From Lepisosteus oculatus (lineage: Eukaryota > Chordata > Actinopteri > Semionotiformes > Lepisosteidae): a stretch of DNA of 64,000 nucleotides. Position numbers and translations under genes: made by a program. The notes under the pieces are model-generated. The model had not been told where the DNA came from and made no database searches. It saw nothing but the letters and a program-made list of their open reading frames with translations. Positions 2,093-63,708 of the stretch are shown here, piece after piece (within the stretch, counting starts at the first letter, position 1; every line of letters starts with the position of its first letter). Location of the stretch: contig NC_090703.1 of NCBI RefSeq assembly GCF_040954835.1, forward strand, positions 8,551,001 to 8,615,000. Direction: 5' to 3'.

Positions 2093-5000
2093 AAATGGTC
2101 GAATTAATGTGGGCGTTCTGTAGTTGATGCATCCTTTGCGGGGCTAAACGCAGATGAACTGCTATGAGATGAAGCGTTTTCCCCGTGAAACGCAGGAATG
2201 GAACATAAATCTGTGCAGCTCAACTTGCTTTCCCGGCGAATTCTTCAGAAATATTTCCTGTGCGGTGCGATGACCCAAGCTTAATGTGCCATGTCTGTGC
2301 TAGTAGGCAGTTTTCTACAGTGTGGCACTGCTTATGTATCAATAACTGGGTTTGTCACACTTGGTTCATTTGGAATGAAAGCATTTCCCCTTGGAACCGA
2401 GTTTCATGAACATGGCTTCCTGTAAAAATGCTGAAATTACGCTTTTCTGTCATAGTCACGGAGGTCTAGTAACATCGTGTTATGTACTATACGTGCGTAT
2501 GTTTTTTCCCCAATGTTATATTAAAACACTTTGCACTCAGAAAACTTAATACACTATATTTTTTTGTTTGCACGATCACGGAGGACAAGTACAAGTTTAA
2601 CGATTATGGGACGTCATGTGTTCTTCATATACTTTTGACTGCCTCGAAGCGATTTAAAAAAAAAAAAAAGATCCATCCCTCCTCGGAGTATTCCAGCAAA
2701 TTGAATTTACCTTAACATTTGGGATTTAGTATGATATGCTATAGCTGAGGGCTGTGATTTAGACTGTTGTTTCTTTTGATATTTCTAATAAAACTACGGT
2801 ATAATGGTGAAACCCTTGTGCTCTAGTGCAGAGTTTGCTTAACTCTTCCAGGGAAACATTTTGAATATTTAAAGACAGGTGTTCCTAAGAAAACGTCTCA
2901 TAAGTACCTAAAAGAAAACCATTTTTTTTTAAATTAGATGTCTTTGTGGAAAACGAGATGGAGTTTATTTATTTGGGTGTAAGTGTCTGATCAGTTCAAA
3001 TTCAGAAAACAGATTTTTACTAAAACTATTTACTAAGCATTCTGGCAACACCTGAAGAGAAAAGGATCAGAAAACTCATGAAGCTTAATAAATGCAGTCA
3101 TGGAGATGTACCAGCAGGACCAAAAAAAATGTCCTCAGTAGATGGTGAAATAAGATGTTTTGCTTTAAGATTTTTCCCCCTTCGTTCTCTTTGTGGGTGT
3201 CCAAGCAAGTCAAAATGGTTTAAAATAATTGGTGTTACAAAAGTCATATGGGCCCTATTAATGATCTTGTTGCTGTCAGGTCTTTTATCATTGAAACCCC
3301 ATCAATTTATTTAAGTGAGACCTCAACAGTTTCAATATGATGTCAGTATACTGTAGTTAGCCTATGTATTTATTCCATTGTGGCCTGAATGAGTGATTTT
3401 GTTTGAAAACAAACATCTATAGGAATTGAATGTTTAAGTTGAACATTTTCAGGTTTTTAATTCCAGTTCTAGAACTTGTAAGGTGTACACCCAAAATGTT
3501 ACGGTCAGCCTCTAAATGACAAAGGAAGCAATGGACATAAATGGTAGGAAAATATTTCAAAACCCTGAAGCCTCTGGTTTATTCAAAGGGACAAGGACAG
3601 CTATTAAAAGCCATCTGTTGTATTTTTGTGAAAAAAGATGACATTGCTCTTAATTAAGGAGAAGAGACTTAAAATATTTTGGGTAATTTTGTGTTTATGT
3701 TTGGGTAATGTTAAGGAGTCCTATGTTGTTGTTTTTTTCAGGCAAGAACCAGAAAAGATAGCAATTAATGATTAATTGCCAGAATTTGACACCTCACCTG
3801 CGCATCAGCGATATTGCAGGTTGAGCTTGGTTCATGACGCAAGTCAAGGTGTTAAGCTCCTGATTTCTTCCAGTCATTCCAACAAAAATACTTTCAGTGC
3901 CTTAATCTGAAAACTGTTTCCCAACATGTCTTTAAAGGGAACACTCCTAGCAATCCAACAATAAGCCACAAACATTCGTTAGTTCGCCTATTAAGATATC
4001 GTTTTGGTGATATTTCAGAAGTATATAAAATTACAACAGCTTTGAGATGCCTTAAAGGTCAAAGTCATTAAAGCCTTTATTACTTTGGCTTATTAATATA
4101 ATTGCACAGCTAAGCAGGTTAAATTGTATCCCACATGTGTCTTCCAGATTTTCAGGCCTTGTGTTTGTTTTAAACAGATTGTGAACAAAGTTTAATTTTA
4201 AACTTGCCAAAGTGATGCATGCAATGTTAATTTTCCCTACATAGCTTTCTCTTGAATGGTTGGTCGAACCCCTATCTGCTCAGGGGTGCACCGAGGAGTA
4301 GGAGTGTCATAGAAACCTGGAACCTGGAGACTGCTTTCACAAAGCAGTGCAGTCCTCTCTGAACCCCGCGGGGGCTGCCTGCCCGTGTTAAGGTTTGCCC
4401 TGCGTGCAGTTTGTGTCATGGCAGATGCCAAACCCTGTTTATCACAAGGCAATCCATATAGCCCGGATGCCTTTGTTTGTTTTTGAAGGATACAATTATT
4501 TTCTTCTGTCGCAGGAAAGTGTGAAAAAGAACATTCCGAAATGCAGCAAAGATTTGTTTCTCCAAAAAAGATGTCTCTGTGAGCTTTTACCAGGTTCGCC
4601 ACTTTTGCGCAGGTTCTTAGCTCAATAGTAGTTTCATCTGTTGGCTTCGTATGCTGTGTGTATTCAGCATATGGACTCCTAAACAAAACCATGCCGTCCT
4701 TTTCAGATCTGCTGGTTGCTTGTTAATGAAACCCATTCTGCTTGCGTAAACCTGTTCAGTGTGTTACATAAGACACAAGGTGTTTCCTTAGCCAGCTCTT
4801 TTGCAATGTAATGCACCAGAATAACTTGACTGACTCCCATGAATGACATGGAGTTGCCTGGATAGCTTAAATAAACTTTTGAATGGGTGTTGTAAATCTG
4901 GCACGAGAAGATCTTGGTTGAAGTTTCAAAGTCTTGCACGGGGCAGAAAACAGTGTACACCCTGGTTCCTGCTCTCGTGGAACAGTGATCCCGCTCAGGG

Positions 5001-10886: not shown

Positions 10887-10991
10887 ATGGACGAGGAAGA
10901 GGAGCGAAGGAAAAGGAGGCGAGAGAAGAACAAGGTGGCCGCGGCGCGCTGTCGAAACAAGAAGAAAGAGCGGACGGAGTTTCTGCAGCGG
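10887..10991 (+). CDS. jdp2: jdp2 coding exon 2 (bZIP basic region, residues 69-103)
   Basis: This exon is 105 nt, exactly 35 codons, phase 0 at both ends. It encodes the acidic lead DEEEERR and the DNA-contacting basic region, including the FOS/JUN-type signature [14 protein letters not shown], in which Asn, the two Ala, Cys and Arg are the base-contacting residues of the family. It ends EFLQR, just before the leucine zipper, at donor CGG|GTGAGC. The first codon is ATG (Met) where I recall mammals having Leu; a transcript starting here could in principle make a bZIP-only form, but there is no evidence that it does. Confidence 0.96.
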
Positions 10992-12178
10992 GTGAGCGCT
11001 GGCGCTGGGGCGGGCGATGTGTGGGCCTGGCTCTGGGGGTCTGTGGGTGGGGGTTCGCTCCCCATGGCTCACTCTCGGAAAGTGCGTGCAGAGCTCGGCG
11101 CAGGTGCTGTGTGCCCCAGCGGTCTCATTTCCCAGGGTGAAGCAGCACTCTGACCCACTCCTCCTGGGATCACGCCCCAGCCAGCTCATGCCCAGAGGCC
11201 TTGTTTAAAGGCCAGGAGCAGGCTTGACATGTACAGTTGTCCCTTTCCAGCTCCTGGCTGTGCAGGGAGGAATTAACATTAACATTAAAATTAACATCTT
11301 GATAACTAAGTTATAATCCATTTTCAACATTTCCTCTGTTCCCCTGTTATCTGACACCTCAATAATATGATACAATAATAATTGCTTACACTAATATAGC
11401 GCTTTTTCTGGACACTCCACTCAAAGCGCTTTACAGGTAATGGGGACTCCCATCCACCACCACCAATGTGCAGCCCCACCTGGATGATGCGATGATGGAT
11501 AGTGCACCAGAACACTCACCACACATCAGCTATCAGTGGGGAGGAGAGCAGAGTAATGAAGCCAATTCATAGATGGGGATTATTAGGAGGCCATGATTGG
11601 TTAAGGCCAATGGGAAATTTGGCCAGGACGCCGGGGTTACACCCCTACTCTTTTTGAGAGACACCCTGGGATTTTTAATGACCACAGAGAGTCAGGACCT
11701 CTGTTTTACATCTCATCCGAAGGACAGCACCTGTTTACAGTATAGTGTCCCCGTCACTACACTGGGGCATTAGGACCCACATGAGCCACAGGGTGAGCGC
11801 CCCCTGCTGGCCCCACTAACACCTCTTCCAGCAGCAACCTTAGTTTTTCCCAGGAGGTCTCCCATCCAGGTACTGACCAGGCTCACACCTGTTTAGCTTC
11901 AGTGGGTTGCCAGTTGTGAGTTGCAGGGTGATATGGCTGCTGGCCATGCTTAAAATGCTTAACTAGACTAATTATCTTGTTAAAAATCATTTGTTGGGCG
12001 GAATTAATAACAGACGTAGACTGTCAGTTAAAAACGTGAAAGCTGGGGTGAAAATCAGAAAATGGGTGCCCTTTGAGGTCCAATTTTTAAAAAGAGATCC
12101 CTTTGGTCCAGCTTCATCGCCGCCGCCCCTGAGAGTTGGGCACTCCCAGCGTGTGACGCGTCTGGAATTCCCTTGCAG
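10992..12178 (+). other. jdp2: jdp2 intron 2
   Basis: This 1187-base intron runs from donor GTGAGC to acceptor CCTTGCAG. Nearly half of it is a 5S-derived SINE inserted in antisense orientation (11372-11942). The 5' part (10992-11210) remains GC-rich. Confidence 0.85.
11372..11942 (-). mobile_element. 5S-rRNA-derived SINE (SINE3-like), near full length
   Basis: The right-hand 95 bases, read on the minus strand, follow 5S rRNA. They include the box A-like GAAGCTAAGCAGGT-type segment (here with AAACAGG) and the box C-like CTGGATGGGAGACCTCCTGGG. This is the internal Pol III promoter of the SINE3 class. The body is about 450 bases and the far end is a TTATTATTG-type tail (AATAATAATT on the plus strand). 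The element matches the copy at 15846-16422 along its whole length with scattered differences. It sits antisense in jdp2 intron 2. No clear target-site duplication is visible by eye. Confidence 0.8.
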
Positions 12179-14839: not shown

Positions 14840-15138
14840 GCCGGGCACGGTGGCGCGCGCCTGTAATCCAAGCTACTGGGAGGCTGAGGCTGGCGGATCG
14901 CTTGAGCTCAGGAGTTCTGAGCTGCAGCGGACTATGCCGATCGGGTGTCCGCACTAAGTTCGGTATCGATATGGTGCTCCTGGGGGAGCCCGGGACCACC
15001 AGGTCGCCTAAGGAGGGGTGCACCGGCCCAGGTCGGAAACGGAGCAGGCCAAAGCCCCCGTGCCGCTCAGTAGTGGGATCGCGCCTGTGAATAGACGCTG
15101 CAGTGCAGCCTGAGCAATATAGCGGGACTCAGTCTTTT
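14840..15138 (+). ncRNA. rn7sl: 7SL RNA (signal recognition particle RNA)
   Basis: This is the RNA scaffold of the signal recognition particle, which pauses translation of secreted proteins and docks ribosomes at the ER. The match to vertebrate 7SL runs from end to end. The 5' Alu domain starts GCCGGGCACGGTGGCGCGCG and continues CTGGGAGGCTGAGGCTGG. The S domain has ATGCCGATCGGGTGTCCGC (helix 5 region), the helix 6 stem-loop bound by SRP19, and GGTCGGAAACGGAGCAGG, the helix 8 site bound by SRP54. The 3' Alu strand has GGGATCGCGCCTGTGAATAG. The length is about 299 nt, as in human. It is followed by a T4 stretch and not by a poly(A) tract, and a CRE lies upstream, so I read it as an active Pol III gene. 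It stands alone between jdp2 and batf. Confidence 0.95.
15135..15138 (+). terminator. rn7sl: Pol III terminator TTTT
   Basis: Four T residues end the 7SL match (GACTCAGTCTTTTGC). No A-rich tail follows, unlike 7SL retropseudogenes. Confidence 0.8.
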
Positions 15139-15845: not shown

Positions 15846-16422
15846 AATAATAATAATAATTGCTTACACTTATATAGCGCTTTTCTGGACACTCCACTCA
15901 AAGCGCTTTACAGGTAATGGGGACTCCCCTCCACCACCACCAATGTGCAGCCCCACCTGGATGATGCGACGGCAGCCATAGTGCGCCAGAACGCTCACCA
16001 CACATCAGCTATCAGTGGGGAGGAGAGCAGAGTAATGTAGCCAATTCATAGAAGGGGATTATTAGGAGGCCATGATGGGGTAAAGGCCAGGGGGAAAATT
16101 TGGCCAGGACACCGGGGTTACACCCCTACTCTTTTCGAGAAGCGCCCTGGGATTTTTAATGACCACAGAGAGTCAGGACCTCGGTTTTACGTCTCATCCG
16201 AAGGACGGCGCCTGTTTACAGTATAGTGTCCCCGTCACTGTACTGGGGCATTAGGACCCACACAGACCGCAGGGTGAGCGCCCCCTGCTGGCCCCACTAA
16301 CATCTCTTCCAGCAGCAACCTTAGTTTTTCCCAGGAGGTCTCCCATCCAGGTACGGACCAGGCTCACACCTGCTTAGCTTCAGTGGGTTGCCAGTTGTGA
16401 GTTGCAGGGTGATATGGCTGCT
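15846..16422 (-). mobile_element. 5S-rRNA-derived SINE (SINE3-like), near full length
   Basis: This second long copy is in the same orientation as the one in jdp2 intron 2. On the minus strand it starts AGCAGCCATATCACCCTGCA, continues TGAAGCTAAGCAGG and CTGGATGGGAGACCTCCTGG (5S boxes A and C), runs through the family body, and ends in a TTATTATTATTA tail. This copy keeps CTAAGCAGG intact and is the better reference of the two. Confidence 0.85.
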
Positions 16423-16489
16423 ATTATTCTATTTTTATTTGTTTTGTGAATAGGCAAAGAAAATCCCACGACAGAACCAAAGGGGAAAC

Positions 16490-37479: not shown

Positions 37480-38248
37480 GCGATGTCTTTTAACAACTAT
37501 TGGTTAAAGTTCGCAGGGTGGAGCTTCTACACCACGTGGTTGTAGGAAGCCGGCGTTTACATTGGAGGCCGGAGCATGACCGCTCTGAAGTTTGAAGACT
37601 TATTTTTTTTCCCCGACGGGATTTGGACTAGTAAGGCTGTGTCTTTTTGTACTTTCAGTCCCTAAAGGGATCAGCATGCCGCAACACAACTGTAATGATG
37701 ACTTACCATCATCATGTGGCTCCGATTTCTGCATCATAAGGAAGTCCTGAAAAGTTTCTCCTTTGTCATAAAGTTGCCAAGTTTGTTCTTATTTTTTTAC
37801 GATTAGGTTAGCGATTTTGGTAACAAAGTACGTACTGTCCTTCAAACAAACCGAACGTATTGTTTTTAAGCCGCAATATCAGGTAGCTAATATAAAAAAC
37901 AACTCGTCATATAGCCAAAGAAGAAACTGAAGTGCACCCGCACGTGACTTTTTCCCCAAAAAGGAGAACTGCTGGTGTTACTGAAGATCAAAGGATCTGA
38001 CGGGTAACAAAACAACGAGTTTATCTTCGGGTTTTTGTCGGACCTTGATTCTCACAACCGATATCTTCTTTCCCGTTTGCTCAACCGGTGTGCAGTAAAA
38101 CGTCTAGCATGAGATAACTGTGTATCTCCTAACAGCCGTGGTGTTCTTTCTCAGAGAGACATTCATAGAAAATACTACAGGGCTCTTCCTGAAAAGGTTT
38201 CCGGGTCCCAGAAATCAAGGGGGAAAAAAATCGAACTGACCGAGAAAC
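37480..38248 (+). promoter_or_regulatory. flvcr2: flvcr2 5' flank and leader for exon 1A
   Basis: An inverted CCAAT box (CTATTGGTT, about 37497-37505) and an E-box CACGTG in ACCACGTGGTTG (about 37530-37545) lie 700 bases before the exon 1A start, in a stretch of raised CpG. No TATA box is obvious. The start codon is preceded by GAGAAAC. The promoter role is inferred from these boxes and from position. Confidence 0.4.
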
Positions 38249-38812
38249 ATGAACGAGACGCCTGCCTCCGAGAAAGATGCTTCGGATCTGGAAAAAGCAA
38301 AAATCATTCATGACCCCAAATCTCCGGCTGACGTCCAGAAACTCCCCAATGGGAACGAGGATGGCTCCCTAGCTACCCACCTGTACCGAAGGCGATGGTT
38401 CATCGTCTGTCTGTTCAGTTCTTACTCTCTCTGCAATGCGTTTCAGTGGATCCAGTACGGCATCATCAACAACATCTTCATGAAGTTCTACAACGTGGAC
38501 TCCTTCACCATCGACTGGATGTCCATGATCTACATGCTCACCTACATCCCTTTCATATTCCCCGTTACGTGGCTGTTGGATAAGAAGGGGCTGCGGGTCA
38601 TAGCTCTGGCCGGGTCCGCCCTGAACTGCGTGGGGACGTGGATCAAGGTGGCGAGCGTCAGACCCGACCTGTTCGGGGTGACGATGTTGGGACAGTTCAC
38701 CTGCTCGCTGGCCCAGGTCTTCATTCTCGGGATGCCGTCCCGGATCGCCTCGGTGTGGTTCGGATCACGTGAAGTGTCCACGGCGTGCTCCATCGGCGTC
38801 TTTGGAAACCAG
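38249..38812 (+). CDS. flvcr2: flvcr2 alternative first coding exon 1A (188 codons)
   Basis: FLVCR2 (SLC49A2) is a 12-segment plasma-membrane major-facilitator transporter, now regarded as a choline/ethanolamine carrier and earlier linked to haem. The exon encodes a 44-residue polar cytoplasmic tail, then TM1 (with NAFQWIQYG), TM2, the loop motif DKKGLR (MFS motif A type), TM3, TM4 and the start of TM5. [16 protein letters not shown] and [12 protein letters not shown] agree almost fully with mammalian FLVCR2. Trp67 and Gln156 align with human Trp102 and Gln191, residues of the choline site; the spacing of 89 is the same. It ends phase 0 at CAG followed by GCAAGT, a GC-type donor. Using the next GT, four bases on, would break the frame. 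No exon 2-like sequence occurs before exon 1B, so 1A most likely splices to 50618. Confidence 0.9.
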
Positions 38813-38818
38813 GCAAGT
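38813..38818 (+). promoter_or_regulatory. flvcr2: GC-type splice donor of exon 1A
   Basis: CAG|GCAAGT pairs with U1 at every other consensus position, as is usual for the rare GC-AG introns. Only this cut keeps the frame into exon 2. Confidence 0.75.
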
Positions 38819-40466
38819 ATCCCCGAGAGACGACATAGGCAGTTAAGTACTCTTGGATATCCTCCAGAATTGATTCTAAAAGTCACAACCAGCATCATCT
38901 GAATACATCGTCAGAACCTCATTCTTAATTCTCGCTGTTCCTTCTTCACCGTAGGACAGCGGGTTGACGCCTAATGTGCACTAACAAGTTTCAGTATGGC
39001 AGTTTCAAAACACGCTTTCTCTGCCACTGCAAGTGGTGTTATTGATTTTCTTTGAAAAAACAACAACCCATTGCTTTTTATTTGTGCTACACGTAACATA
39101 ACCGAAATCGAGGGTTCGTGGGTGTGTAGTCACAGTGAAGAAATGTATGATTAACATTGGACGGTTTATTAAATGTGGTCTGTGAAGGGGATTTAAACTG
39201 CTTCATTTTCAAAAGCAGAGAACGGTAATATATTTGTTCTGCTCAGTGCAGATACGCAAAGGAGTTATCTAAGAGCACGGTGACTTGATATTAATTGTTA
39301 ATATTAACATGAATCTCCAGAAGGTTTGGAGTGCCAGTGTTTCAAATTAATTTAGGGAATGGGTTGATGCAGGGAACTGGTGTTAAGAGCTCTACTGAAT
39401 TTCTGTAAAGTAATATTTTTGCTTTTGAAGGAAATTTAAGGCTTTAATGAAAGACAGTGGTGGATTTCATTCAGACCTGGTTTAGGGTTAGGGTTAGGAT
39501 TTCTTGGAGATGAGGTGTTGTTATGGTTATGTTTCAAATGGTTTAAATGACTTGAGTGTTTGAGGCCTCTGTTTGGCTTGATTCAGCATTCTGGTGATTG
39601 TTAGGGCTTTTACTAACATGTATAAAACATAAGGCCACAAGCAGGCATAGGGCAGTACAAAACTGTAACTCCATCTGAATTTTTCATCTATCTTAAAAAT
39701 GTAGCCATGATGTTAGCTGAAGTTAAATTTAAGGGGCACTCTAACCCAAAACCAAACAGTAGCCCAATGCTGTGTCAGGTGCCTGGAACCTACCCTACCC
39801 CCAGCCTCGAAATGGACCTGAAACTACTGTAGATGCCACAGTTTAGCTGAAAATGTCTGACCTGTTAGCCCCCAGGAGCTGAAAAGCCATCTCCACATCA
39901 TCCCCAAGTCTACAGTCGTCTCTAATTGACTAAGTCAGAATTAAGTTTTGGTCCGACTCTTTACACCCTCCCTGGCAGCGACAGGGCTGCAAGTCTTGGC
40001 TACTGCCACCTTTTGTACTGAAAGCTCCTTTGAAACTTAAAAATATATCGCACTGAATTAACTGTCCTGTGATTCCCTAACGGATATGTACTTTCTTCCT
40101 CTTGCCGTCTTTTTGTCTAGCCAGAATTCCTAATTACATGTGCCTTGTCTTAATGAAGCCTGTTAGTCCTGCTTGTGTATGGTTTATGTCGAATGTGTTT
40201 GCAGCACCAAGTATACCGGAGTATTTTCCTTGTACGTGACATGTACGTGGTGAGTGCAGATGACTCTATTTCTGGTTTCCAAGTCACACTCACACACTGT
40301 CAAAATCAAACTGAACTGGGAGTAAAGCTTCTGTACATGCGTTACAAGCATCTGTATAAATCATTTAATTTATTTTGTCTCCGTGAAAGACATCGGCAAC
40401 AAAGTACAGTTAGTGCAGGGAGTCAGGTTCCCGCCAGCTCCTCTTAAATCAGCAGCTCTGTGCTCC
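38819..40466 (+). other. flvcr2: flvcr2 intron between 1A and 1B, left part
   Basis: No exon is recognised. Three TTAGGG units occur at 39482-39500, too few to mean more than chance or a short interstitial telomere-like motif. Confidence 0.6.
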
Positions 40467-40506
40467 GGGGGCGGTCCACTTCCGCATGGCTGCCGTCTCT
40501 CATTGG
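40467..40506. promoter_or_regulatory. Promoter-like cluster: GC box, ETS site, CCAAT box
   Basis: GGGGGCGG (40467-40474), CCACTTCCGC (40476-40485, ETS type) and an inverted CCAAT box ATTGG (40502-40506) fall within 40 bases, and CpG-bearing sequence continues to about 40740. It lies between the two flvcr2 first exons. It may drive transcripts that use exon 1B through an unseen leader exon, or a minus-strand transcript. No TSS evidence is available. Confidence 0.35.
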
Positions 40507-40920
40507 CTGCCTCTCTCCGGACGCCGCTGTCAGGATCTTACGTCGGCACTCTTAAAGGGGAAAGCGGTCCTCTGCTTCACCACGTTGACCATCGTGGCAG
40601 TGAAACTCGCGGAAATCCGTCAGTTTTGTAAAAGCAAAATCCAAGTTACTGGCAGGCCCGTGGCACGATGTGCTTAGTGTCGTTTGTGGGATTTCTGCAC
40701 GCCGCTGCGAACCCAAAGCGGCAAAACACGCTGCGAAGTCCTTATTCATTGCAGTGAGTTTTAAGTCTTTGAGGAATGTTTTTCTAGTTTTAATCTGTTT
40801 TGGCGGTTTAAATCCTACCCAGCCATACGTGCAGTATTGTGTCCGGGAGGATCTCCTATTTGAATCTTTCCCCAAAGTTATTATGGTTGGCACTGGAGAA
40901 ATATATTATTATAACAACAA

Positions 40921-41196
40921 TTCTCTCGAAAAAGAGTAGGGATGTTAATCCTGATGTCCTGGTCAAATTGCCCCCTGGCCTCCTAATAATCCCCATCTAT
41001 GAACTGGCTTCATCACTCTGTTCTCTTCCTCACTGAGAGCTGGTGTGTGGGGAGAGTACTGGTGCACTTTGGCTCCTATCGCATCATCCAGGTGGGGCTG
41101 CACACTGGTGGGGTGGAGGGGAGTCCCCATGACCTGTAAAGTGCTTTGAGTGGAGTGTCCAGAAAAGCGCTGTATAAGTGTAAGGATTTATTATTA
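40921..41196 (+). mobile_element. 5S-SINE, 5'-truncated
   Basis: This copy runs in the opposite direction to the others. It starts inside the body (TTCTCTCGAAAAAGAGTAGG), passes AGGTGGGGCTGCACACTGGT and GTGCTTTGAGTGGAGTGTCC and ends in the TTATTATTA tail. The 5S head is absent, as expected for truncated reverse transcription. Confidence 0.8.
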
Positions 41197-42101
41197 GACA
41201 ACGGTCTGTGATTGACTTATGTTGTACTGTAGTTTGTCACAGAGCCTGACAGAAAGTAGACCACCAAAAAAGAACAGCAAGCGAATTATTGACTCTCAGA
41301 AGAGCATGTACCGAGAATTGACCAGGAAGGGTCATTCTGTAAATATCTTGTCATAAAATGGTCTCTTTTCCTGATGTGATTCTGGATTGTTTTTATATAA
41401 CAATAATTGAAGAATGGATTAATTATTGGACAGGTTTCCTAATGAGAACTAAAGAAACCAAATAATTGGGTAAAAGCAGGTAAAAATATGGACTTGCAAA
41501 GCCTCTCAGTCCCTGGAATGTCTGTGCCTGTGTTCTGTGCTGCTCCTGCTGTAGCAGAGAAGTGCTTCTTTTAAAGCAAGCAGGGTTGGAAAGGAAGATA
41601 TCAAAACCGCTTTTCTTTCGATAACACGCTTTATAGCATAACGGGAAAACTGTCACGGCAACCTTCTATGCAGAACTTCAATATAGGTTTGCAACGTAAT
41701 TGATTTTCATCTTTGATTTTGTTGTTTGGTTATTGTAAGGACTTAAATCAATATTACGTACTGTATATCCCACTCACTGGTCTGCCTTGGGCCAGATAGT
41801 CATTTTCTTCACGGATATTTGCACTCGCACTGGATTTAAAGGAGCAATCTATGCCACCTGTATTTTCTTTTATTCCGTTGCTTTCTTGCTCCACGTTCTG
41901 ATAGGTGATTTTATTTTTTAGGCTGAGTCAGAAACCTTGAAAGGAATGGAAGCTGTTCATCTACAGTAGCCATAAGGCGCTGTCTCCAGCTCCTAAACCC
42001 TTGAGTCCTGTGTCGCCTGGCCACAGGCTGAAGGGCGAAAATGGAGATGCAGAAGGTCTTCTGTGGTGTCAGATTCTGAAGAGAGCTGTTGTAATGTGAT
42101 C

Positions 42102-42597
42102 TTGTACTCAGTCCCTCCATTCATACTCCGTAACTGTGTGCTTCACTAGTGTGGTGCCTGTTTCTACATACTGTACTTCAGACATGCTGAAAAAGCTTAT
42201 TTAGGTAGTTAATAATGGACTTTGATTTAAAAAAAAGCTCTGTAACGAAGGTTTCTTGAACTTAATTATATTAGGTAAAATAGCTGCAAAGTGGTGTAAC
42301 TGCAGAATAAATGAAAGGAAAGGCGTCGTGCGTAGTTCTGCTATGCAGGTACTGTATTTAGCTGATTGGGCACTCAAAGCCCTTAATCTTCATATATATT
42401 TGGGCTTATTTTGTTTTAGTTTCTTTGAGCCAGCATTTTTGTTGATCATTAGTTGTGTGACTTGGTAAATGCAATGTTGAGATTAGCATGTGGTATTAAA
42501 GAAGGAATTTATAGTGGAACATTATATTGTACAGTATAACAATGAAACGTCATCAGCAGCTACAGAAAGGTACGGGTTATTTGCCTTATGATAAGGG
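42102..42597 (+). repeat. Tandem duplication, unit 1 (496 bp)
   Basis: This unit is followed directly by a near-identical second unit with an exact offset of 496 bases. I find three differences by eye (ACATACTGT/ACATATTGT, TAACGAAGG/TAATGAAGG, TATAGTGG/TATGGTGG). The content is AT-rich and non-coding; the matching 70-codon frames in both units come from the duplication. Confidence 0.95.
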
Positions 42598-43093
42598 TTG
42601 TACTCAGTCCCTCCATTCATACTCCGTAACTGTGTGCTTCACTAGTGTGGTGCCTGTTTCTACATATTGTACTTCAGACATGCTGAAAAAGCTTATTTAG
42701 GTAGTTAATAATGGACTTTGATTTAAAAAAAAGCTCTGTAATGAAGGTTTCTTGAACTTAATTATATTAGGTAAAATAGCTGCAAAGTGGTGTAACTGCA
42801 GAATAAATGAAAGGAAAGGCGTCGTGCGTAGTTCTGCTATGCAGGTACTGTATTTAGCTGATTGGGCACTCAAAGCCCTTAATCTTCATATATATTTGGG
42901 CTTATTTTGTTTTAGTTTCTTTGAGCCAGCATTTTTGTTGATCATTAGTTGTGTGACTTGGTAAATGCAATGTTGAGATTAGCATGTGGTATTAAAGAAG
43001 GAATTTATGGTGGAACATTATATTGTACAGTATAACAATGAAACGTCATCAGCAGCTACAGAAAGGTACGGGTTATTTGCCTTATGATAAGGG
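42598..43093 (+). repeat. Tandem duplication, unit 2 (496 bp)
   Basis: The second unit of the pair ends at TTATGATAAGGG before unique sequence GCCGTTCTC. It lies in the intron between flvcr2 exons 1A and 1B. Confidence 0.95.
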
Positions 43094-43486
43094 TTGCCGT
43101 TCTCACACCTTAGGTAAAAGACTGACTGCTGACTGTACACATGCCCACCCCATAGCCAGTACAATTCCAATGTTTTGTTAGACATAGAAATACTAATGTG
43201 TCCAACAATAGGAAGGGAGTTATTTCTGCTCTGTATTTCAGGATCAGTAAGAATTGTACATCTCATCTTCAACCATTTTTCAGGTTTTGCACTTTGTGTT
43301 CTTTGCTCTGACTGCTCTTTGGCCTGACTGATTAGATCCCTTGGCACTGGCTGATTTCACCTGTGGGGTTGTACATGTCCGTTTTCTCTGAAGTTCCCCC
43401 ATAATTCAATGGGTGAAGTAACCTCTCACTGCTCACCCTGATCTCCAGTGCACTGGGCCTCTGGTCCAGAATGGCTGCTGTATATT

Positions 43487-44112
43487 TAGGGTGACCAGAC
43501 GTCCTCTTTTTCCCAGACATGTCCTCTATTTGAGACCTAAAATATTGGTCTGATCGGGATTTATAAAATTCCAAGAATTGTCAGGATTTTGTTTTGCTCA
43601 TTATTCAGACTGTAAACACACAAAGGCCTGCATATTTTCGTTCATTCTATGCATTACCAGTAGATGTTTTGAACTTGCATGCAGCGTACGCAGTGTAGCT
43701 TGAAAAGGGTTTTTGTGTGTGTGTGGCTGTTTTTAAGGATATGAGAAATAACAATGTTTAACTTGTTTCATTATATTTCAAAATGTTTAGTTAAAATTGA
43801 TAATTTTTGCAACCAATGAGGAGGTCTCCTAAGTTATGATGTCTTCATTTTTTCCTCCGATATAAAGACTTTTGTTGTGTTAAAATGGAAAAAAGTTTAA
43901 AATGGTTTATTTTTCCTTGTTTGGCGGTATGGAAGAGAAATAGCAACCCTACAACTGTTTAAGAGCTTGCTAAGAAGTTAAATAAAAACTAGAGAGTTTA
44001 AGCTGATTTTTGGATTAGAAAAAGTAATAAAGATTAGTTACTTTGGAGGCATGTGTCGAGTGTCGATTATCCCCCTGTCCTCTTTTTTGAAAACCAAACT
44101 ATGGTCACCCTA
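43487..44112. mobile_element. Non-autonomous DNA transposon with terminal inverted repeats
   Basis: The left end TAGGGTGACCAGACGTCC (43487) and the right end TATGGTCACCCTA (to 44112) form an 11-bp inverted repeat, TAGGGTGACCA. Subterminal GTCCTCTTTTT also recurs near both ends. The 626-base interior has no transposase. The ends recall hAT-type elements, but I see no clear 8-bp target duplication, so the superfamily is uncertain. Confidence 0.6.
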
Positions 44113-44159
44113 GTAAGGTACGTCACCTGGAGGGCTGCACTTCACAGCTCCGTAAAATC

Positions 44160-44240
44160 AGCCCTCCTATGTTTAAAGTGCTTTGGGGATTCTTCTGGTT
44201 GAAAAGCTCTTCATAAGTAAGAGAAATTATTATTATTTTC
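44160..44240 (+). repeat. SINE/LINE 3' tail fragment
   Basis: AAAGTGCTTTGGGG, then CTCTTCATAAGTAAGAGAAA and TTATTATTATT, is the usual tail of CR1/L2-type-mobilised fish elements. The body is not recognisable. Confidence 0.45.
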
Positions 44241-44344
44241 TCTGATATAAACCTCCAGCTCTGTTACTTTTGAGTGAGCTGAATTTCTGTTGCTCTTCCT
44301 GTAAAACGCACTGAAAAAGTCCAATAAAAATAATGTCAAATTGC

Positions 44345-44460
44345 ACCGATATTCTACCCTTGAGCAAGGTACTTCACTTAAATTGCATCTGTAGAATGTC
44401 CAGCTATCTAAATGTAAGCCAGTATGGATAAAAGTAACAGCCAAGTAAATCAATTATTAT
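44345..44460 (+). repeat. SINE 3' fragment
   Basis: CCTTGAGCAAGGTACTTCAC, GGATAAAAGTAACAGCCAAG and a short TTATTATT tail match a common fish SINE 3' region (consensus-like GGATAAAAGCGTCAGCTAAA). Confidence 0.5.
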
Positions 44461-45184
44461 TAATGCTAATTATTCATTCATGTTTAATTATCATTTTCCT
44501 TGGGGAAGAACGCTTGCATTGTTTGCAAGTAACAAAAAGAAACATTGCAGCACTACAGACAATATCCTCAGGCAGCCATCATTTCAGTGTCTCTCACATT
44601 TTCAGAGTCAGATTCGAATGGTGGAGGTGTTTATTGCTAATGCGTAAAGACTTTCTCAAGTACACCACAGCACTGCCTTTTAACTGAAATTTTGAATTAT
44701 TACAGAATTGGAGCATCACTGAAATGTTGTATATGTAGATGCCTACCCTCACGAAGCATAGAAGCTTTTATATGTCAGGGTTTTAAAATGGTTTTGCAAA
44801 ATGCCGTGTGCTTGCTAGGAGGTAACTGAACCTGGAAGGAGGGTCCAAAGAGGAAAATCCTGAAACATCACATGACTTTGGAAGGCCGGTGCTAATAAAT
44901 AGTGGAATACACACAAAGGGTTTGGGAAAAGGGGAACAGATCTGGAACTGTCAGCTCACTTATGAAGCAGGTATTTTTCAGAGGTGTGTTTACTGTACCA
45001 GGGCAGCATGGCAGGCAGAATTAGGGTGAGAGTGCACTCTGTTTGTTTTACTTAGTATGGTTTTGAATTTTACGGAGAAGGGGATTTAAGAAGCTTGAAG
45101 AGAAGCTTGAAGAAAATAAAGAGCATCAAAGTTTCATACAGACCCCACTCCTAAGGTGCTGCAGGTTTTCCGTCCAGTTTCAAC

Positions 45185-45844
45185 ATGCAGCAGGAAACGC
45201 AGATGAATGGTGACGTCAGTCTGAAGATGACCAGGACTGGGAATGCAACCACAGAGGACACAGTGACAGCTGCAGGAAACAGTGGTCCTGGCGCGGCTGG
45301 TCATGCAGGGCAGTCTTCTCCAGGCGATGGGAACCCAGTGGAGGGAGGAACCCCCACTCCTGCTGATCCAGCAATTCATCCGGAAGCCCCAAGTTTGGCT
45401 GCAGCCACTCATGTTTACAAGAGGCGGTGGGTGATACTTGTCCTCTTCAGCACGTACTCCATGTCCAACGCCTTCATGTGGCTTCAGTATGGCATCATCA
45501 GTAACATCTTCATGAGGTTTTACAGCGTAGACTCCTTCGCTATCAGCTGGCTCTCCATGATCTACATGCTGACCTATATCCCCCTGATCTTCCCTGTCAT
45601 GTGGCTCCTGGACAATCGCGGGCTCCGGGAAGTCCTCGTGGCCGGTTCGGCTTTCAACTGCGCCGGCGCCTGGGTCAAAACGGGCAGCGTCGGCCCACAC
45701 CTCTTCGGGGTCGCCCTGTTCGGCCAGTTGGTTTCCTCTGTGGCCACCGTGCTCATCCTGGGCATCCCTGCCCGCCTGGCCTCGCTCTGGTTCACCGAGA
45801 AGGAGGTCTCCACCGCCTGCGCCATCGGCGTCTTGGGAAACCAG
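45185..45844 (+). CDS. flvcr2: flvcr2 alternative first coding exon 1B (220 codons)
   Basis: This is a second, divergent first exon of the same transporter. A 76-residue Pro/Gly/Thr-rich cytoplasmic tail precedes TM1 (NAFMWLQYG), TM2, DNRGLR, TM3, TM4 and the start of TM5, ending [13 protein letters not shown]. Hand alignment to exon 1A over 144 residues without gaps gives 94 identities (about 65%). The choline-site Trp is kept (Trp99), but the Gln of TM4 is Thr188 (SVATVLILG versus SLAQVFILG). It ends phase 0 at CAG|GTCCGT, a weak donor, and joins exon 2 at 50618 in frame. A possible acceptor (TTTTCCGTCCAG, to 45177) eight bases before the ATG suggests a further untranslated exon upstream. 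Confidence 0.92.
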
Positions 45845-47235
45845 GTCCGTGATCTGCCCGAAACAGGAGCTAGTTTTGTCGGCCAGGAGGTGTTTGTCTT
45901 TGGGGCCCGGGCATGGTTGTGTTTTCAGCTACGTAATGGTGGGCGCAGGCGGAATTCACGTGCTCCTCTGGAGGTAATCTACTTGGCCTGCTCTCAACCT
46001 TCAGTGGGAAAAAAAAAATTGCTGTGTTTGTTTTGTTACCTGTGTAACTTGAATGGGGGTTCCCGACGCATTCAGCCACAGGAAATCCAATTGTTTGCTT
46101 GGTGGTGAAAAGCCGCATCCCTCTGAAGTGTGACTTGTTTTTTGAGTGCACTCAATGTCTTCTGTTCCTGACGTTAAAGAAGCCAAAACCTAAAAAGTTT
46201 CTCTGTATTTACAATCCTAATCCTTTCCAATTCCTAATTCTTCCCAGCTCACAAGGATAGTGCAGCTCTGTCATTTGCTCTCCACGCCATGTTTTGGATT
46301 TATTCGCTTTTCGTTTTCTTGAACGCTTTGAGTATGATTGAATGGTTTCTTTTTTTTCTACAAGCCAGTGTTTTTCTTAACTGTGAGGCAGACTCAAAAG
46401 GGTGGGACTGCCACGCCTGCTCTGACCTCTGCAAAACTGTGGTTCATTTGAAAGGCAGTACAAACCGTGGCAGCTGTAGCAGAAGGCAGGTCTGTGCTGA
46501 AGCTCAGTGTGAGGATGTGGGCGAAAGAGTACAAGACACTTTTTTGTTCTGAATAGTCTTGTGCAATGCGAGGCTGAAGTTTTGTCAACCAAGTTTTGTA
46601 AAAGGGCTGTTCAGATGGAAGTCTGGCTATTGGCTTCTGTGAGGAAGCTGTAGATTTCTGTGGGAATACTGTGAGCATTTTTGAGGGGTGTAAGCCTGAC
46701 AAATTAGAAGAAAAAGAGACAAAGCCTGATTGTAAAAATGTTGTATCCACGCAGACAAAATTCTTGGGTGCCTGAAAGGACTGGTTTCCTGTATGTGCTT
46801 GTTTCTGTCATGCTCTGTGCGTGAAAAAAAAAGACTCAAGTCACGCATACGGGATGTTTGATAGGGAGTTCCCTTAGAAATTGGACACACAAATATAGAA
46901 ATGCCTTAGCAGGTGCACCTTTGCCAAGCTGAAGTGAAAGCTTGTCTGTGTCTCGTTGAGATATCAGAAGACCCAGGAAGAAACGACAAAACGAGTTTTG
47001 CCGAAACTTGAAAACAAAAGTTTTTTTTAACTAGCGTAACGTAGAAAGAGCTTCTAAGGTGACTTTTGTATTCAAGCAGTTTGCGTAGTTAAGTGCTTGA
47101 TTGACAGGAGCAGTAGAAGGGCAGAACACTATTGCAAAGCCCTGCCTTGCCTGCAGTTCCAATTGCTTGTATACGGAACAATGAATTAAATGCATCTGCT
47201 TTAAAGGTTCCAATACTTCTGGTTTCAGTGCCTCT

Positions 47236-47575
47236 CAGTGTATTTGTATAGTGCTTTTCATCCTGAAGGATCCAAGAGTTTTTCACCCAGAGGAGGCACC
47301 CCATCTGAGCCTCTGCTAAAGCTGCACAACTCCCTGGAGGGGACACAGCAGGTCAGGGGGAGGAGTGGGAAATTACTCTAATTGAATTGAAGGGGAAATT
47401 TAAGACAGACTTTGACATTTAGCTCAACTATAACCCAAAGGGGAATTTAGCCAGGACACTGGGGTTTAACATCCCTATTCTTAAGAACAGTGCAGTGGGG
47501 TCTTAGACAGGTCTGTGAGGACATACGCTGAGGACCCATGTCCTTCCTCTCTCTCGGCAGAGTAGTACCCTAGTT
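47236..47575 (-). mobile_element. Old, degraded 5S-SINE relative
   Basis: TATAGTGCTTTTCATCCTGA near the left and TTTAGCCAGGACACTGGGGT then CATCCCTATTCTT in the middle correspond to the family body (TTTGGCCAGGACACCGGGGT). The 5S head is not discernible. Confidence 0.55.
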
Positions 47576-48091
47576 TGACTAAGAAAGACACAAAAATCTT
47601 ATTTTTCCCCGTGGGTCAAATAGTGAATCTTGACTGCAGTCCACTTTAAGTCAATAAGACAGATCTTTAGCTTACTGTTCCTTTAAAAATTGCATCGACG
47701 ACGAGAATTTCTTCCACATGTGACACCTTGGAGTTTTGAACATGGCAAGTGATTGAATTAGTGTAGCTTTGGGGGGAAAAACAAACTTAAAGTTTAAAGT
47801 TTAGCTTTAATTTAGGCCAGTTGTACCTTTGCTGTAATTCCTTTATTCCACTGGGATATTATGAATATTTATAATCACCCAGGCAACGTTTGCTTCTCCT
47901 TAACAGTCCTGAACCTTTTGGGATAATCTGCACTGATGCTTGGCTGCAGAGGGAAACACAAATTTGAACATTATAAAAGGCCACACGTGTGTACTTGGTT
48001 CCCAAAGAACATGTTTGGAAAATTTAAAAAAATAACCAGCCAGTCATAATTCAAACAAATTTGACTATCGCCTTGTGAAAAGGAAGGAGTC

Positions 48092-48208
48092 GTACTTGAC
48101 TGGTGTCCCACCCAGGGTGTATCCCCCCTTGTGCCCGTTGCTTGCTGGGATGGACTCTGGTTCCCCCTGTGGCCCTGAAATGGATAAAGTGGTTTGAAAA
48201 TGGATGGA
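48092..48208 (+). mobile_element. V-SINE, 5'-truncated
   Basis: Only the 3' part is present: GACTGGTGTCCCACCCAGGG, CCCGTTGCTTGCTGGGATGG, GCCCTGAAATGGATAAAGTG and AAAATGGATGGA. Confidence 0.75.
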
Positions 48209-49149
48209 AATGTTGGAGTCTGTATAATCTGAGAACTTGATCTGCCAGTTGCTTAGCAGGAAATATCAGTTGTAGCATGAGAAGATTTTAAGAGATGGTT
48301 TATTTTTACTTTCTCTTCATTTACTACTTACAGAGATTTCAGTCGTAAAATACTCGAACAAGCAGTATTTTATTGCTAGTTGGTGGGCAGTTGCGCCGGT
48401 AGGGGAAATTATTTCCCTCTGATGTTCCTCTGAGACCTCTTGCACGTTGACAGAAAATGGGTTACGGAAATTTGCAGATTCTTGTCTGGAGTCCGTTTCT
48501 TAGCGGGGAATTTTTTATTCTGCTGTTTTGCGATGCTCGTTTGTGTGCACATCGCAGTGAGACCCAGCCGTGCTGTGTGGGGAGTCTGAGGCTGGAGAGT
48601 GTGCCAGGTTATGCGTTTCCCAGAGCTGAACCTTCATCTCAAAAGATTGAATGCTGTCAAGAAAAGTCCCACCGTCAGTTTGTTGCGCCTGTGCATCTCT
48701 GTGGAGAGAAATCTAGGATTTTCCATGATGCCCACATGAAAGATATTGAATTTGTTTATTATCCTGACGATCAGGCATAACCTCCCCTTGCTGATCATAA
48801 ACACCTTTGTTTCACCATAGAGTTCATAAGACAGTTTCGGTTCCTCGTGTTTTAACAAACGAACACCGGTGTGATTTGGAAACCTTAGTTTCTTTCAAAA
48901 GGCTGTTGAACTGCCTGTGATTAAGTGTTCATATTAAATTAACGGTTTCTATAACCACAGTGAAAAAGCTTAGGTTTCTTGGTGTATAAAATGCAAATCA
49001 AATTCCAAAACTTGAGATGTTACTTATATCATAAACATTGCATAGATCTGACAGCGAGCACTTTTATCTTCCTTTCCTGTTGCATGCAAATCAAACTTTT
49101 CAGCTTTCCATTTACTTCAACACAAGAATAAATAGGGGGTAGGACGGAA

Positions 49150-49480
49150 TCTCTCCCTTTTCCTCATCCCCCTGGAAGCACAGCTGCAGCCCTGCAGTGC
49201 TGGAGGGGTCTGGCTGGATGTCTGCTGTCCAGCTCTGCGGGCAGTGGCAGGAGGCAGAAGAGACGAGGGCTCTCTCCCTGGGTCGCGCGCCCGCGGGCTC
49301 GTCCCTCAGGACCTGCGGCAGCAGCTTGCACAGGGTTCCAGGTGCTCCTTCCTTCTAGCGCGCGGCTGCCTCCGGCTCTGTGGGCGGCCCCAGGGCCCCC
49401 CCTGAGGGAGCTGAGCGATTGCACAGCTTCTCGTCTCTCGTTAAAATAAGCAACCCAGAGGCCTCCAGAGGCCATGCTGT
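49150..49480. other. GC-rich block in flvcr2 intron 1
   Basis: This is a local GC-rich island with GCGCGC and CGCGGG words in AT-rich surroundings. A 103-codon minus-strand frame crosses it (49475-49164), but its Ala/Arg/Gly-rich product looks like a GC by-product. An octamer-like ATGCAAAT lies just outside at about 49084. A regulatory or alternative-promoter role is possible. Confidence 0.3.
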
Positions 49481-50617
49481 TTATTTCATTTAGGTTTTCA
49501 AAGTGGACTCTTAGAGCTGACTTGCTGAACAGTCTTCAGGGAACTAGGCTACATCCTGACGAATTGGGGAGCTCTTGAAAATGACTTGACCTTTCAACTC
49601 GCACACAGCAGCAGTTACTCAGTTAAATGGTTATTTTATAACAAAAGAGGTTTTAAACCCTTAAAATGGCTGTCACCCCACAGTTAAATAATTCTTGCTT
49701 TAAGGAAATATAGAAAATAACTTCAGTGCTAACAAGTTTGTTTAGTGTCCAATGTTCCCCCCCACCCTTTCCTTTTGTTTTTCAGGGATGTTTTTGGAGA
49801 TTATGAGCAGATTTTCACACTTGGCACTAGACTGGACTGAGAATGTACGGAAGCAGTAGGATTCCTGGGCAAACGTACATGAAAATGCCAGTGATTTCAG
49901 CTACTGACGTTTTTAATTTCTTTGGGATTTAAGAGATTATTTCTTCATGGGAGCTGTAATCATTGTGTACTTTCTGGTCAGTCTTTTGTCTGCTCAGAAA
50001 AGGCTCACAGTCCCAGTGCTGAAGACAGCCCCAGCCTGTGTTGGGCTGCCCTGCCAAGTCCCTGAGGCATTCTCTCCTATGCTCCATTTCTGTGGGTTCT
50101 GTCCTCTTCTTTAACATCCTCCTTATTTTCTCGGCCCTTCAAGGTGTATTGTACTGAAACCCAACTGACTTTCGGACTTACTTGATAGGATGGTTAGGAC
50201 AGTTTATTAGAACTACTGTAATCCTGCCAGTTCATTTTATTTTCCATATCCAAATACCCACGTATAAGCACAGATCATAGCCCCTCTGCAGGCAGTTGAG
50301 TGAGGCGGCCTTGTCGTGCTTGAGCCTCGGACTGTGTTCCTGAATTTCCAGTACGGTGTCAAATTGCTGCTATATGTGCTGCCAGCGATACACTTGACCG
50401 GAGATTGTATCCCCTGCTGGGAATCATGGGAGCTCCTTTTCTTAGCATAAACAGCTGCTTGTGTAGGAATCGTTTGCGTTGTGCACCAATGGTGGAAGAT
50501 CCCAGCTGTGATGCTGTAGTCAGTCTTTCCAGGTGTCGAGAAGATTGCGCTCGAGGAGGTCAAGTGTGAGCTGCTCTCGGGGACTAACGCTGCCCTGTTC
50601 TCTGTGTGCTCTCTCAG

Positions 50618-50759
50618 CTTGGCATCGCTGTCGGGTTCCTGATTCCTCCTGTTGTGGTGCCCAACCTAGATGACCTGGACCAGTTGGCCCATCACATCAG
50701 CATCATGTTCTACGGGACGGCTGCTGTAGCAACAATTCTCTTCATCCTAGTGATCATTG
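50618..50759 (+). CDS. flvcr2: flvcr2 exon 2 (TM5-TM6)
   Basis: The exon starts after CTCTCAG with [17 protein letters not shown], completing TM5, then [13 protein letters not shown] and a hydrophobic TM6. This follows mammalian FLVCR2 (LGIAIGFLVPPVLVPN). It is phase 0 in and ends phase 1 at ATTG|GTAAGA. It is the only copy of this exon in the window, so both first exons must use it if both are expressed. Confidence 0.94.
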
Positions 50760-55476: not shown

Positions 55477-55617
55477 TGTTTCAGGAGAAGCCAGATCTTC
55501 CCCCTACGCAGGCTCAGGCTACCATCAGGAGCTGCCCCCCGGAGAACTATTCTTACATTCAGTCCATCCTGCGTCTCCTCAGCAACCGACCCTTCATCCT
55601 CCTCATCATCACCTACG
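55477..55617 (+). CDS. flvcr2: flvcr2 exon 3 (central loop, start of TM7)
   Basis: After the acceptor CCTCAAG the split codon restores Val, giving VFQEKPDLPPTQAQ, the cytoplasmic loop between the two six-helix halves (VFKEKPKYPPS in human). NRPFILLIITY starts TM7. It ends phase 1 at TACG|GTATGT. The acceptor uses AAG rather than CAG, but only this cut fits frame and family. Confidence 0.92.
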
Positions 55618-59126: not shown

Positions 59127-59194
59127 GATTAAACGTTGGCTGCTTTTATGCTGTATCCACGCTGCTGAACAGGATGATTATTGAGCACTACCCT
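59127..59194 (+). CDS. flvcr2: flvcr2 exon 4 (TM7)
   Basis: 68 nt encoding GLNVGCFYAVSTLLNRMI then IEHYP. The Tyr of CFYAV aligns with human FLVCR2 Tyr325, the second aromatic residue of the choline site; counting without gaps, it is 223 residues after the TM1 Trp, as in human. It would be shared by the 1A and 1B forms. Borders are CAG|GA and CCT|GTAAGT. Confidence 0.93.
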
Positions 59195-59816: not shown

Positions 59817-59920
59817 GGTGAGGAGGTGAATGCTGGGAGGATTGGCCTTACTTTAGTCATTGCTGGTATGGTGGGTTCTCTCATCTGTGGCATTTGGCTC
59901 GACAAAACCAAAACCTACAA
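59817..59920 (+). CDS. flvcr2: flvcr2 exon 5 (TM8)
   Basis: 104 nt encoding [20 protein letters not shown] then a hydrophobic stretch and WLDKTKTYK, the pseudo-repeat of motif A after TM8. It agrees nearly fully with mammalian FLVCR2 here. It ends phase 2 at ACAA|GTAAGA. Confidence 0.94.
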
Positions 59921-63597: not shown

Positions 63598-63708
63598 ACA
63601 GACGACGCTGGCTGTATACTTGATGTCCTTCGTTGGGATGATCGTGTATGCTTTCACCCTTGGCCTGGGACACCTGTGGGTGGTGTTCATCACAGCCGCC
63701 TTGCTGGG
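63598..63708 (+). CDS. flvcr2: flvcr2 exon 6 (TM9, start of TM10); gene continues past window
   Basis: 111 nt encoding [20 protein letters not shown] then [17 protein letters not shown], as in mammalian TM9-TM10. Borders are CTCCAG|A and CTGGG|GTAAGA. The remaining helices and C-terminus lie beyond the right edge, so the coding region is incomplete here. Up to this point form A has about 346 codons and form B about 378. Confidence 0.94.

Follow-up and report, generated by a model that had tools for sequence, protein, structure and literature searches.

The window, by which we mean the whole stretch of 64,000 nucleotides analysed here, carries flvcr2 (SLC49A2), a vertebrate choline-transporter gene. 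Two homologous coding first exons (heads), 1A and 1B, precede one constant set of at least eight exons (2 to 9), which extends beyond the end of the window to position 66815 in extended coordinates (Table 1); this is the layout of a variable-first-exon gene of the UGT1 type. Both heads match 8qcx (E 5.8e-70 for 1A, 5.5e-59 for 1B) and Pfam MFS_1 and align without gaps to solved FLVCR2, from whose human sequence the helix limits of 1A were inferred. An earlier note on this DNA had given the exon positions, the open frames, the phase-0 ends after Gly-Asn-Gln and the start of exon 2, and all are as it had them. It had also claimed that 1A and 1B both fit the single exon 2, and this holds further downstream: the joined models of 1A or 1B with exons 2 to 9 run for 468 and 500 amino acids up to the end of exon 9, with 0 stops.

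Table 1. Features of the two-headed flvcr2 locus (positions in the window unless stated otherwise).
Feature	Position	Strand	Remarks
600 bases upstream of 1A	37649..38248	+	presumed promoter 1A
flvcr2 exon 1A (coding part)	38249..38812	+	TM1-TM4 and start of TM5, after 44 residues preceding the aligned core
Exon 1A 5' splice site	38813..38818	+	GC-type (CAG/GCAAGT)
600 bases upstream of 1B	44585..45184	+	presumed separate promoter 1B
flvcr2 exon 1B (coding part)	45185..45844	+	TM1-TM4 and start of TM5, after 76 residues preceding the aligned core
Exon 1B 5' splice site	45845..45850	+	GT (CAG/GTCCGT)
Shared exon 2	50618..50759	+	acceptor ctctcag/CTTGGC; remaining part of TM5, continuing into TM6; one FLVCR2 copy in the genome searches
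Shared exon 3	55477..55617	+	
Shared exon 4	59127..59194	+	carries residues matching F324, Y325, N332, R333
Shared exon 5	59817..59920	+	carries residue matching E343
Shared exon 6	63598..63708	+	
Exons 7-9	64186-64291, 66126-66237, 66760-66815 (extended window coordinates)		past the window end

The locus is nearer to human and mouse FLVCR2 than to FLVCR1, the FLVCR1 pair separating at 99/99 in the tree, and a separate FLVCR1 gene is present in the same genome, on C2; exon 3 taken alone scores better to FLVCR1. Human FLVCR2 is syntenic with JDP2 and BATF. Here, positions 10890-10988 hold a bZIP exon resembling JDP2, FLVCR1 has a copy resembling ATF3 nearby, and BATF was recognised by eye only. 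Against human FLVCR2, 1A is the human-FLVCR2-like head (101/144 identical, 70%) and 1B the divergent one (89/144, 62%). The identity of the shared exons (186/261, 71%) is close to that of 1A and not to that of 1B, as expected if the shared exons serve 1A.

The claim that no second downstream set lies between the heads stands, at least above chance, for exons 2 to 9 over 84 kb (the window and 20 kb downstream). The best additional match to exon 2 in this interval had an E of 0.36, and the best to any remaining exon an E of 1.3, at 4460; the one lying between the heads, at 44130, had an E of 7.7. When the genome was searched with exons 2, 3, 5 and 7, each returned two places, this locus and FLVCR1, and the genome search for further heads returned FLVCR1 and weak matches only; these searches score the best candidates only, and a strongly diverged second set could escape them. 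As far as the searches reach, there is one FLVCR2 remainder with two heads.

The two heads are identical at exactly 94 of 144 ungapped residues, as had been counted by hand. Identity at fourfold sites (16/44, with 34% expected at saturation) indicates that silent sites are saturated. The 50 replacements between the heads are nevertheless conservative, with a mean BLOSUM62 score of +0.42; neutral simulations, 1000 for each exon, averaged -0.72 and -0.69 and never exceeded 0.0 and 0.06. Neither head thus looks decayed, in agreement with the earlier note: both are open, and no neutral run gave replacements as conservative as theirs. A stop-free frame by itself was discarded as proof of selection, being too weak for the purpose, as 89/1000 and 160/1000 of the neutral runs were also stop-free. 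In fits in which synonymous saturation pushes branch lengths to their bounds, omega = 1 could be rejected for the branch of 1A (2 delta lnL 11.0) and for that of 1B (18.6), separate omegas for 1A and 1B were unnecessary (2 delta lnL 3.2), and the branch of 1B was longer than that of 1A (0.58 vs 0.10). Both heads show signs of long purifying selection and, judged from their sequences, the two alternative first exons are old and well kept. Dating 1B relative to the mammal split was abandoned, the tree being a trichotomy of 1A, 1B and mammal FLVCR2. No repeat of at least 30 bases common to both heads was reported outside the coding part beyond one base past the donor.

In the FLVCR1 gene of the same genome, exon 1 ends at the same Gly-Asn-Gln point as the flvcr2 heads, and by this alignment both donors sit at the ancestral exon 1 junction. 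They are of unequal kind. The 1A donor, on which the earlier note is silent, has GC and not GT, and its score (position +2 ignored) is equalled at no other of the 6076 GC dinucleotides on both strands of the window; the GC could reflect a recent weakening of 1A. The 1B donor is weak, 370 of the 7415 GT sites in the window reaching or exceeding its score. The upstream regions also differ: the CpG observed/expected ratio over 600 bases is 0.89 before 1A (0.47 for the window), and the 600 bases before 1B are CpG-poor, at 0.28.

For four residues of the N-half, W102, N110, D124 and Q191 (human FLVCR2 numbering), alanine mutants of the human protein have been reported. Exon 1A keeps all four; 1B keeps two (W102 and N110) and carries D124S and Q191T. 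All eight C-half residues looked at (I226, N239, F324, Y325, N332, R333, E343 and Q447) are kept in the shared exons, as judged by eye on the model; the human numbering used beyond residue 270 agrees with the residue names in PMC11168923. In human FLVCR2, alanine at Q191 abolishes choline and ethanolamine transport, and alanine at D124 significantly lowers choline uptake and leaves almost no transport of ethanolamine (PMC11168923). An enrichment of pocket changes in 1B was not significant (P = 0.16; 2/4 checked residues changed, as against 15/80 reference-invariant columns). With a change at chance level, 1B may be under relaxed constraint. The two substitutions bear on whether 1B is a choline-transporting FLVCR2, and not on its descent from FLVCR2. 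As 1B lacks two residues important for human choline transport, two distinct carriers may come from this one gene.

We propose, with a probability of roughly 0.8, that flvcr2 is here a UGT1-style variable-first-exon carrier gene, with 1A giving the choline-carrier isoform and 1B an isoform with an altered pocket and gate. A single locus whose two alternative N-terminal parts share one remainder, which the earlier note had held to be the simplest reading, is also the best fit to the sequence evidence, namely the downstream set that is single as far as the searches reach, the signs of purifying selection, the donors on the ancestral junction and the models open through exon 9; the joins themselves are predicted. 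The two alternative coding first exons would most likely have one promoter each. Transcripts starting at 1A would be spliced from the GC donor to the acceptor of exon 2, and those starting at 1B from the weak GT donor to the identical acceptor. As a first exon 1B requires no acceptor, so the 1A intron would just span it. The two mRNAs would yield two 12-helix carriers with most of TM5 and TM6-12 in common, each with its own cytoplasmic tail and its own TM1-4. The 1A form, in which the pocket and gate residues checked are kept, is most likely a choline/ethanolamine carrier. In the 1B form, the choline-contacting Gln191 is Thr and the gate residue Asp124, which forms a salt bridge to Arg333, is Ser; because these two are replaced, 1B most likely has an altered substrate range or activity. 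One might speculate further that this is an old, selected two-headed carrier in which promoter choice swaps TM1-4 and half of the pocket, 1A carrying choline and 1B a different substrate while the shared C-domain serves both, although we hold this fuller version only tentatively and at less than even odds.

Both heads might be used, in keeping with the gene model proposed, and the 1B protein nevertheless be non-transporting, as a decoy, a dominant-negative or a regulatory partner. We consider this less likely than not: 1B has lost Q191 and D124, whose alanine mutants are impaired in the human protein (PMC11168923), but the alanine results do not cover Thr or Ser, and 1B keeps W102 and N110, a gapless alignment and intact shared pocket residues in the C-half. 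Distinctly less probable is a full tandem duplication of flvcr2 in which one copy then lost exons 2-9, leaving one head as an unused relic. Tandem duplication is a frequent origin of such pairs, and the non-canonical donor of 1A, the weak donor of 1B and the longer branch of 1B would all suit a relic. Yet, in the 84 kb searched, remnants of exons 2-9 rise above chance beside neither head, both heads are open and gapless over 144 residues with conservative changes despite saturated silent sites, and the donors fall exactly on the ancestral junction. The earlier note's own alternative, a tandem copy with lost downstream exons, may describe the origin but would result in the same structure today; if both heads stayed in use it is correct at most on origin. 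A single mRNA holding 1A with 1B as an internal exon is highly improbable: the 120 bases preceding the start of 1B contain 15 AG dinucleotides, of which three are in frame with 1B (exon starts 45101, 45113 and 45122) and 12 are not. The three lie upstream of an in-frame stop before 45155, which would end the frame ahead of 1B, and a doubled N-half would be incompatible with a 12-helix fold.

In the open-access literature, among the matches listed, we found no second coding first exon of FLVCR2, no FLVCR2 with an alternative promoter or first exon, and no gar or teleost FLVCR2; flvcr2b gave no match there, and flvcr2a/flvcr2b were absent among the zebrafish-related matches listed. Nor, by title and beginning of abstract, did any paper matched there on alternative first exons and transporters concern a swapped transporter half. 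The present locus resembles human and mouse FLVCR2 (SLC49A2, MFSD7C) in sequence and, in 1A and the shared exons, in all the pocket and gate residues checked; it is unlike them in the D124S and Q191T of 1B. Human residues have been mutated and human structures solved, so a different choline handling by 1B is directly testable, and a two-headed flvcr2 bears on how FLVCR2 chooses its substrates. Within SLC49, FLVCR1 also gives two isoforms from one gene, FLVCR1a and FLVCR1b (PMC10998817), as we predict for flvcr2. FLVCR1b is a shorter isoform, unlike the alternative full N-half of flvcr2. Among other SLC transporters, such as ZIP14 and CAT-2, mutually exclusive duplicated exons alter the substrate or affinity of one carrier; these exons are internal and selected by splicing, not by promoter choice. 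UGT1 has many first exons, as against two in flvcr2. The likeness to UGT1 (UGT1A) and GCNT2 is that tandem variable first exons precede one constant downstream set and, in the UGTs, the N-terminal domain holds the acceptor-substrate pocket; a substrate-binding part swapped in this way is already known for enzymes (PMC1885805). The product of flvcr2 would instead be a 12-helix carrier, in which the swapped part gives TM1-4 of a pocket formed by both domains. If true, the swapping of TM1-4 of a transporter by promoter choice would show that two MFS half-pockets can diverge against one common partner.

At the sequence level, the two-headed flvcr2 (SLC49A2) gene of Lepisosteus oculatus is real, as far as two divergent tandem coding first exons, 1A and 1B, and a single set of shared exons 2-9 indicate. 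Both heads match Pfam MFS_1, and the top solved-structure match of each is human FLVCR2 (8qcx). Over the ungapped stretch terminating in Gly-Asn-Gln, 94 of 144 residues are identical (65.3%), exactly the hand count of the earlier note, whose claim of intact frames fitting exon 2 also holds: the models joined to the end of exon 9, short of the last coding exon (468 aa for 1A, 500 aa for 1B), contain no stops. A finder probe served to place exons 3-9, whose borders were then fixed; exons 7-9 fall past the window end.

Features of the flvcr2 region (window positions)
Feature	Position	Strand	Remark
flvcr2 exon 1A	38249-38812	+	188 codons
flvcr2 exon 1B	45185-45844	+	220 codons
flvcr2 shared exon 2	50618-50759	+	phase-0 continuation of both 1A and 1B
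flvcr2 shared exon 3	55477-55617		
JDP2-like bZIP exon	10890-10988	+	
5S-rRNA-like sequence	11826-11944	-	55.7 bits
SRP (7SL) RNA, metazoan	14840-15138	+	full-length match, 288 bits
5S-rRNA-like sequence	16307-16425	-	48.4 bits
300-base direct repeat	42102-42401 and 42598-42897		99% identical, 496 bases apart, between 1A and 1B

When the window and a further 20 kb were searched in six frames, no downstream exon had a second copy above chance, in agreement with the earlier note, which saw no second set of exons 2-6 between the heads. In the 1.2-Gb genome, where the window is C8:8551001-8615000, exon-1-like sequence was found at 1A, at 1B and in a single FLVCR1 gene on C2, which matches human FLVCR1 at 111 of 144 residues, with additional weak matches (one in one search, four in another). 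Exons 2, 3, 5 and 7, the four used as genome queries, each gave two places only at E up to 1, the flvcr2 locus and FLVCR1; the search scores the best candidates only, so a very diverged copy might escape. Since the first exon of the gar's own FLVCR1 stops at the same residue as 1A and 1B, there with a GT donor, the exon 1-exon 2 junction is ancestral. Besides the JDP2-like exon, two bZIP exons, presumably FOS-like, precede the window by about 20.5 and 12.5 kb (C8:8530484 and 8538436). On C2 an ATF3-like exon is found some 84 kb away from FLVCR1, an arrangement that a paralogous pair of regions would be expected to show. The 5S-like sequences are possibly, at a guess, 5S-derived SINE copies, and the 300-base repeat is probably a recent local duplication.

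The donor of 1A, a point absent from the earlier note, is of the GC type (CAG/GCAAGT), and no other of the 6076 GC dinucleotides in the window (both strands) has as good a context; that of 1B is GT but weak (CAG/GTCCGT), 370 of 7415 GT sites in the window scoring as high. GC-AG introns make up about 0.8% of the protein-coding junctions of human and mouse; among first introns in human their share is 1.2%, and genes carrying them have a greater tendency to alternative splicing (PMC7242645). CpG observed/expected in the 600 bases upstream is 0.89 for 1A and 0.28 for 1B (whole window, 0.47), a contrast compatible with two kinds of putative promoter. A single mRNA carrying both heads is unlikely: the 120 bases before the 1B start contain 15 AG sites, of which 12 do not share the reading frame of 1B and the other 3, which do, all lie upstream of an in-frame stop preceding 45155.

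In a six-row tree the FLVCR1 pair separates at 99/99, and 1A (0.10), 1B (0.58) and mammal FLVCR2 (0.37) form a trichotomy. The duplication is therefore old, as the earlier note had proposed, and may predate or postdate the split from mammals. Identity to human FLVCR2 is 186/261 in the shared exons, close to 1A (101/144) and above 1B (89/144). Shared exon 3 scores 54 bits to human FLVCR1 versus 36 to human FLVCR2, and mammal FLVCR2 may thus have changed in this region.

In line with the earlier note, neither 1A nor 1B has the look of a dead relic. The two are identical at 16 of 44 fourfold sites (34% expected at saturation), much as 1A and FLVCR1 are (14 of 40). Because of this saturation, branch lengths in a three-branch codon model lie at their bounds, so that its likelihood tests are usable and its omega values are not; these tests reject omega = 1 both for 1A (2 delta lnL 11.0) and for 1B (18.6), and separate omegas for the two are unnecessary (3.2). 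The 50 replacements between the heads have a mean BLOSUM62 of +0.42, more conservative than in neutral simulations with equal numbers of differences and no insertions or deletions (means -0.72 and -0.69, maximum 0.06, 1000 runs per exon); 89 and 160 of the 1000 runs stayed stop-free, which makes openness alone weak evidence.

Human FLVCR1, human and mouse FLVCR2 and the gar's own FLVCR1 have 80 invariant columns in common, of which 75 are retained in 1A and 65 in 1B; 1B alone departs at 13 columns where the remaining five sequences agree, and 1A alone at 3. In human FLVCR2, Q191 lies close to choline (PMC11168923, PMC13160678), and the Q191A mutant no longer transports choline or ethanolamine; D124 is salt-bridged to R333, and the D124A mutant takes up significantly less choline and transports almost no ethanolamine (PMC11168923). 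1A retains both residues and 1B carries Q191T and D124S; W102 and N110, which complete the four N-half residues with reported mutants considered here (others may exist), are retained in both heads, and all eight C-half residues checked by eye, R333 included, are kept in the shared exons. Two changes in four residues are no more than chance would give (P 0.16), in view of the number of invariant columns altered in 1B; altered transport by 1B is therefore predicted, and the changes do not show that it has been selected for.

With a single remainder and two open heads, the sequence supports the one-locus, variable-first-exon reading of the earlier note. The flvcr2 locus, with putative promoters and junctions, most likely works like a variable-first-exon gene of the UGT1 type (PMC1885805).
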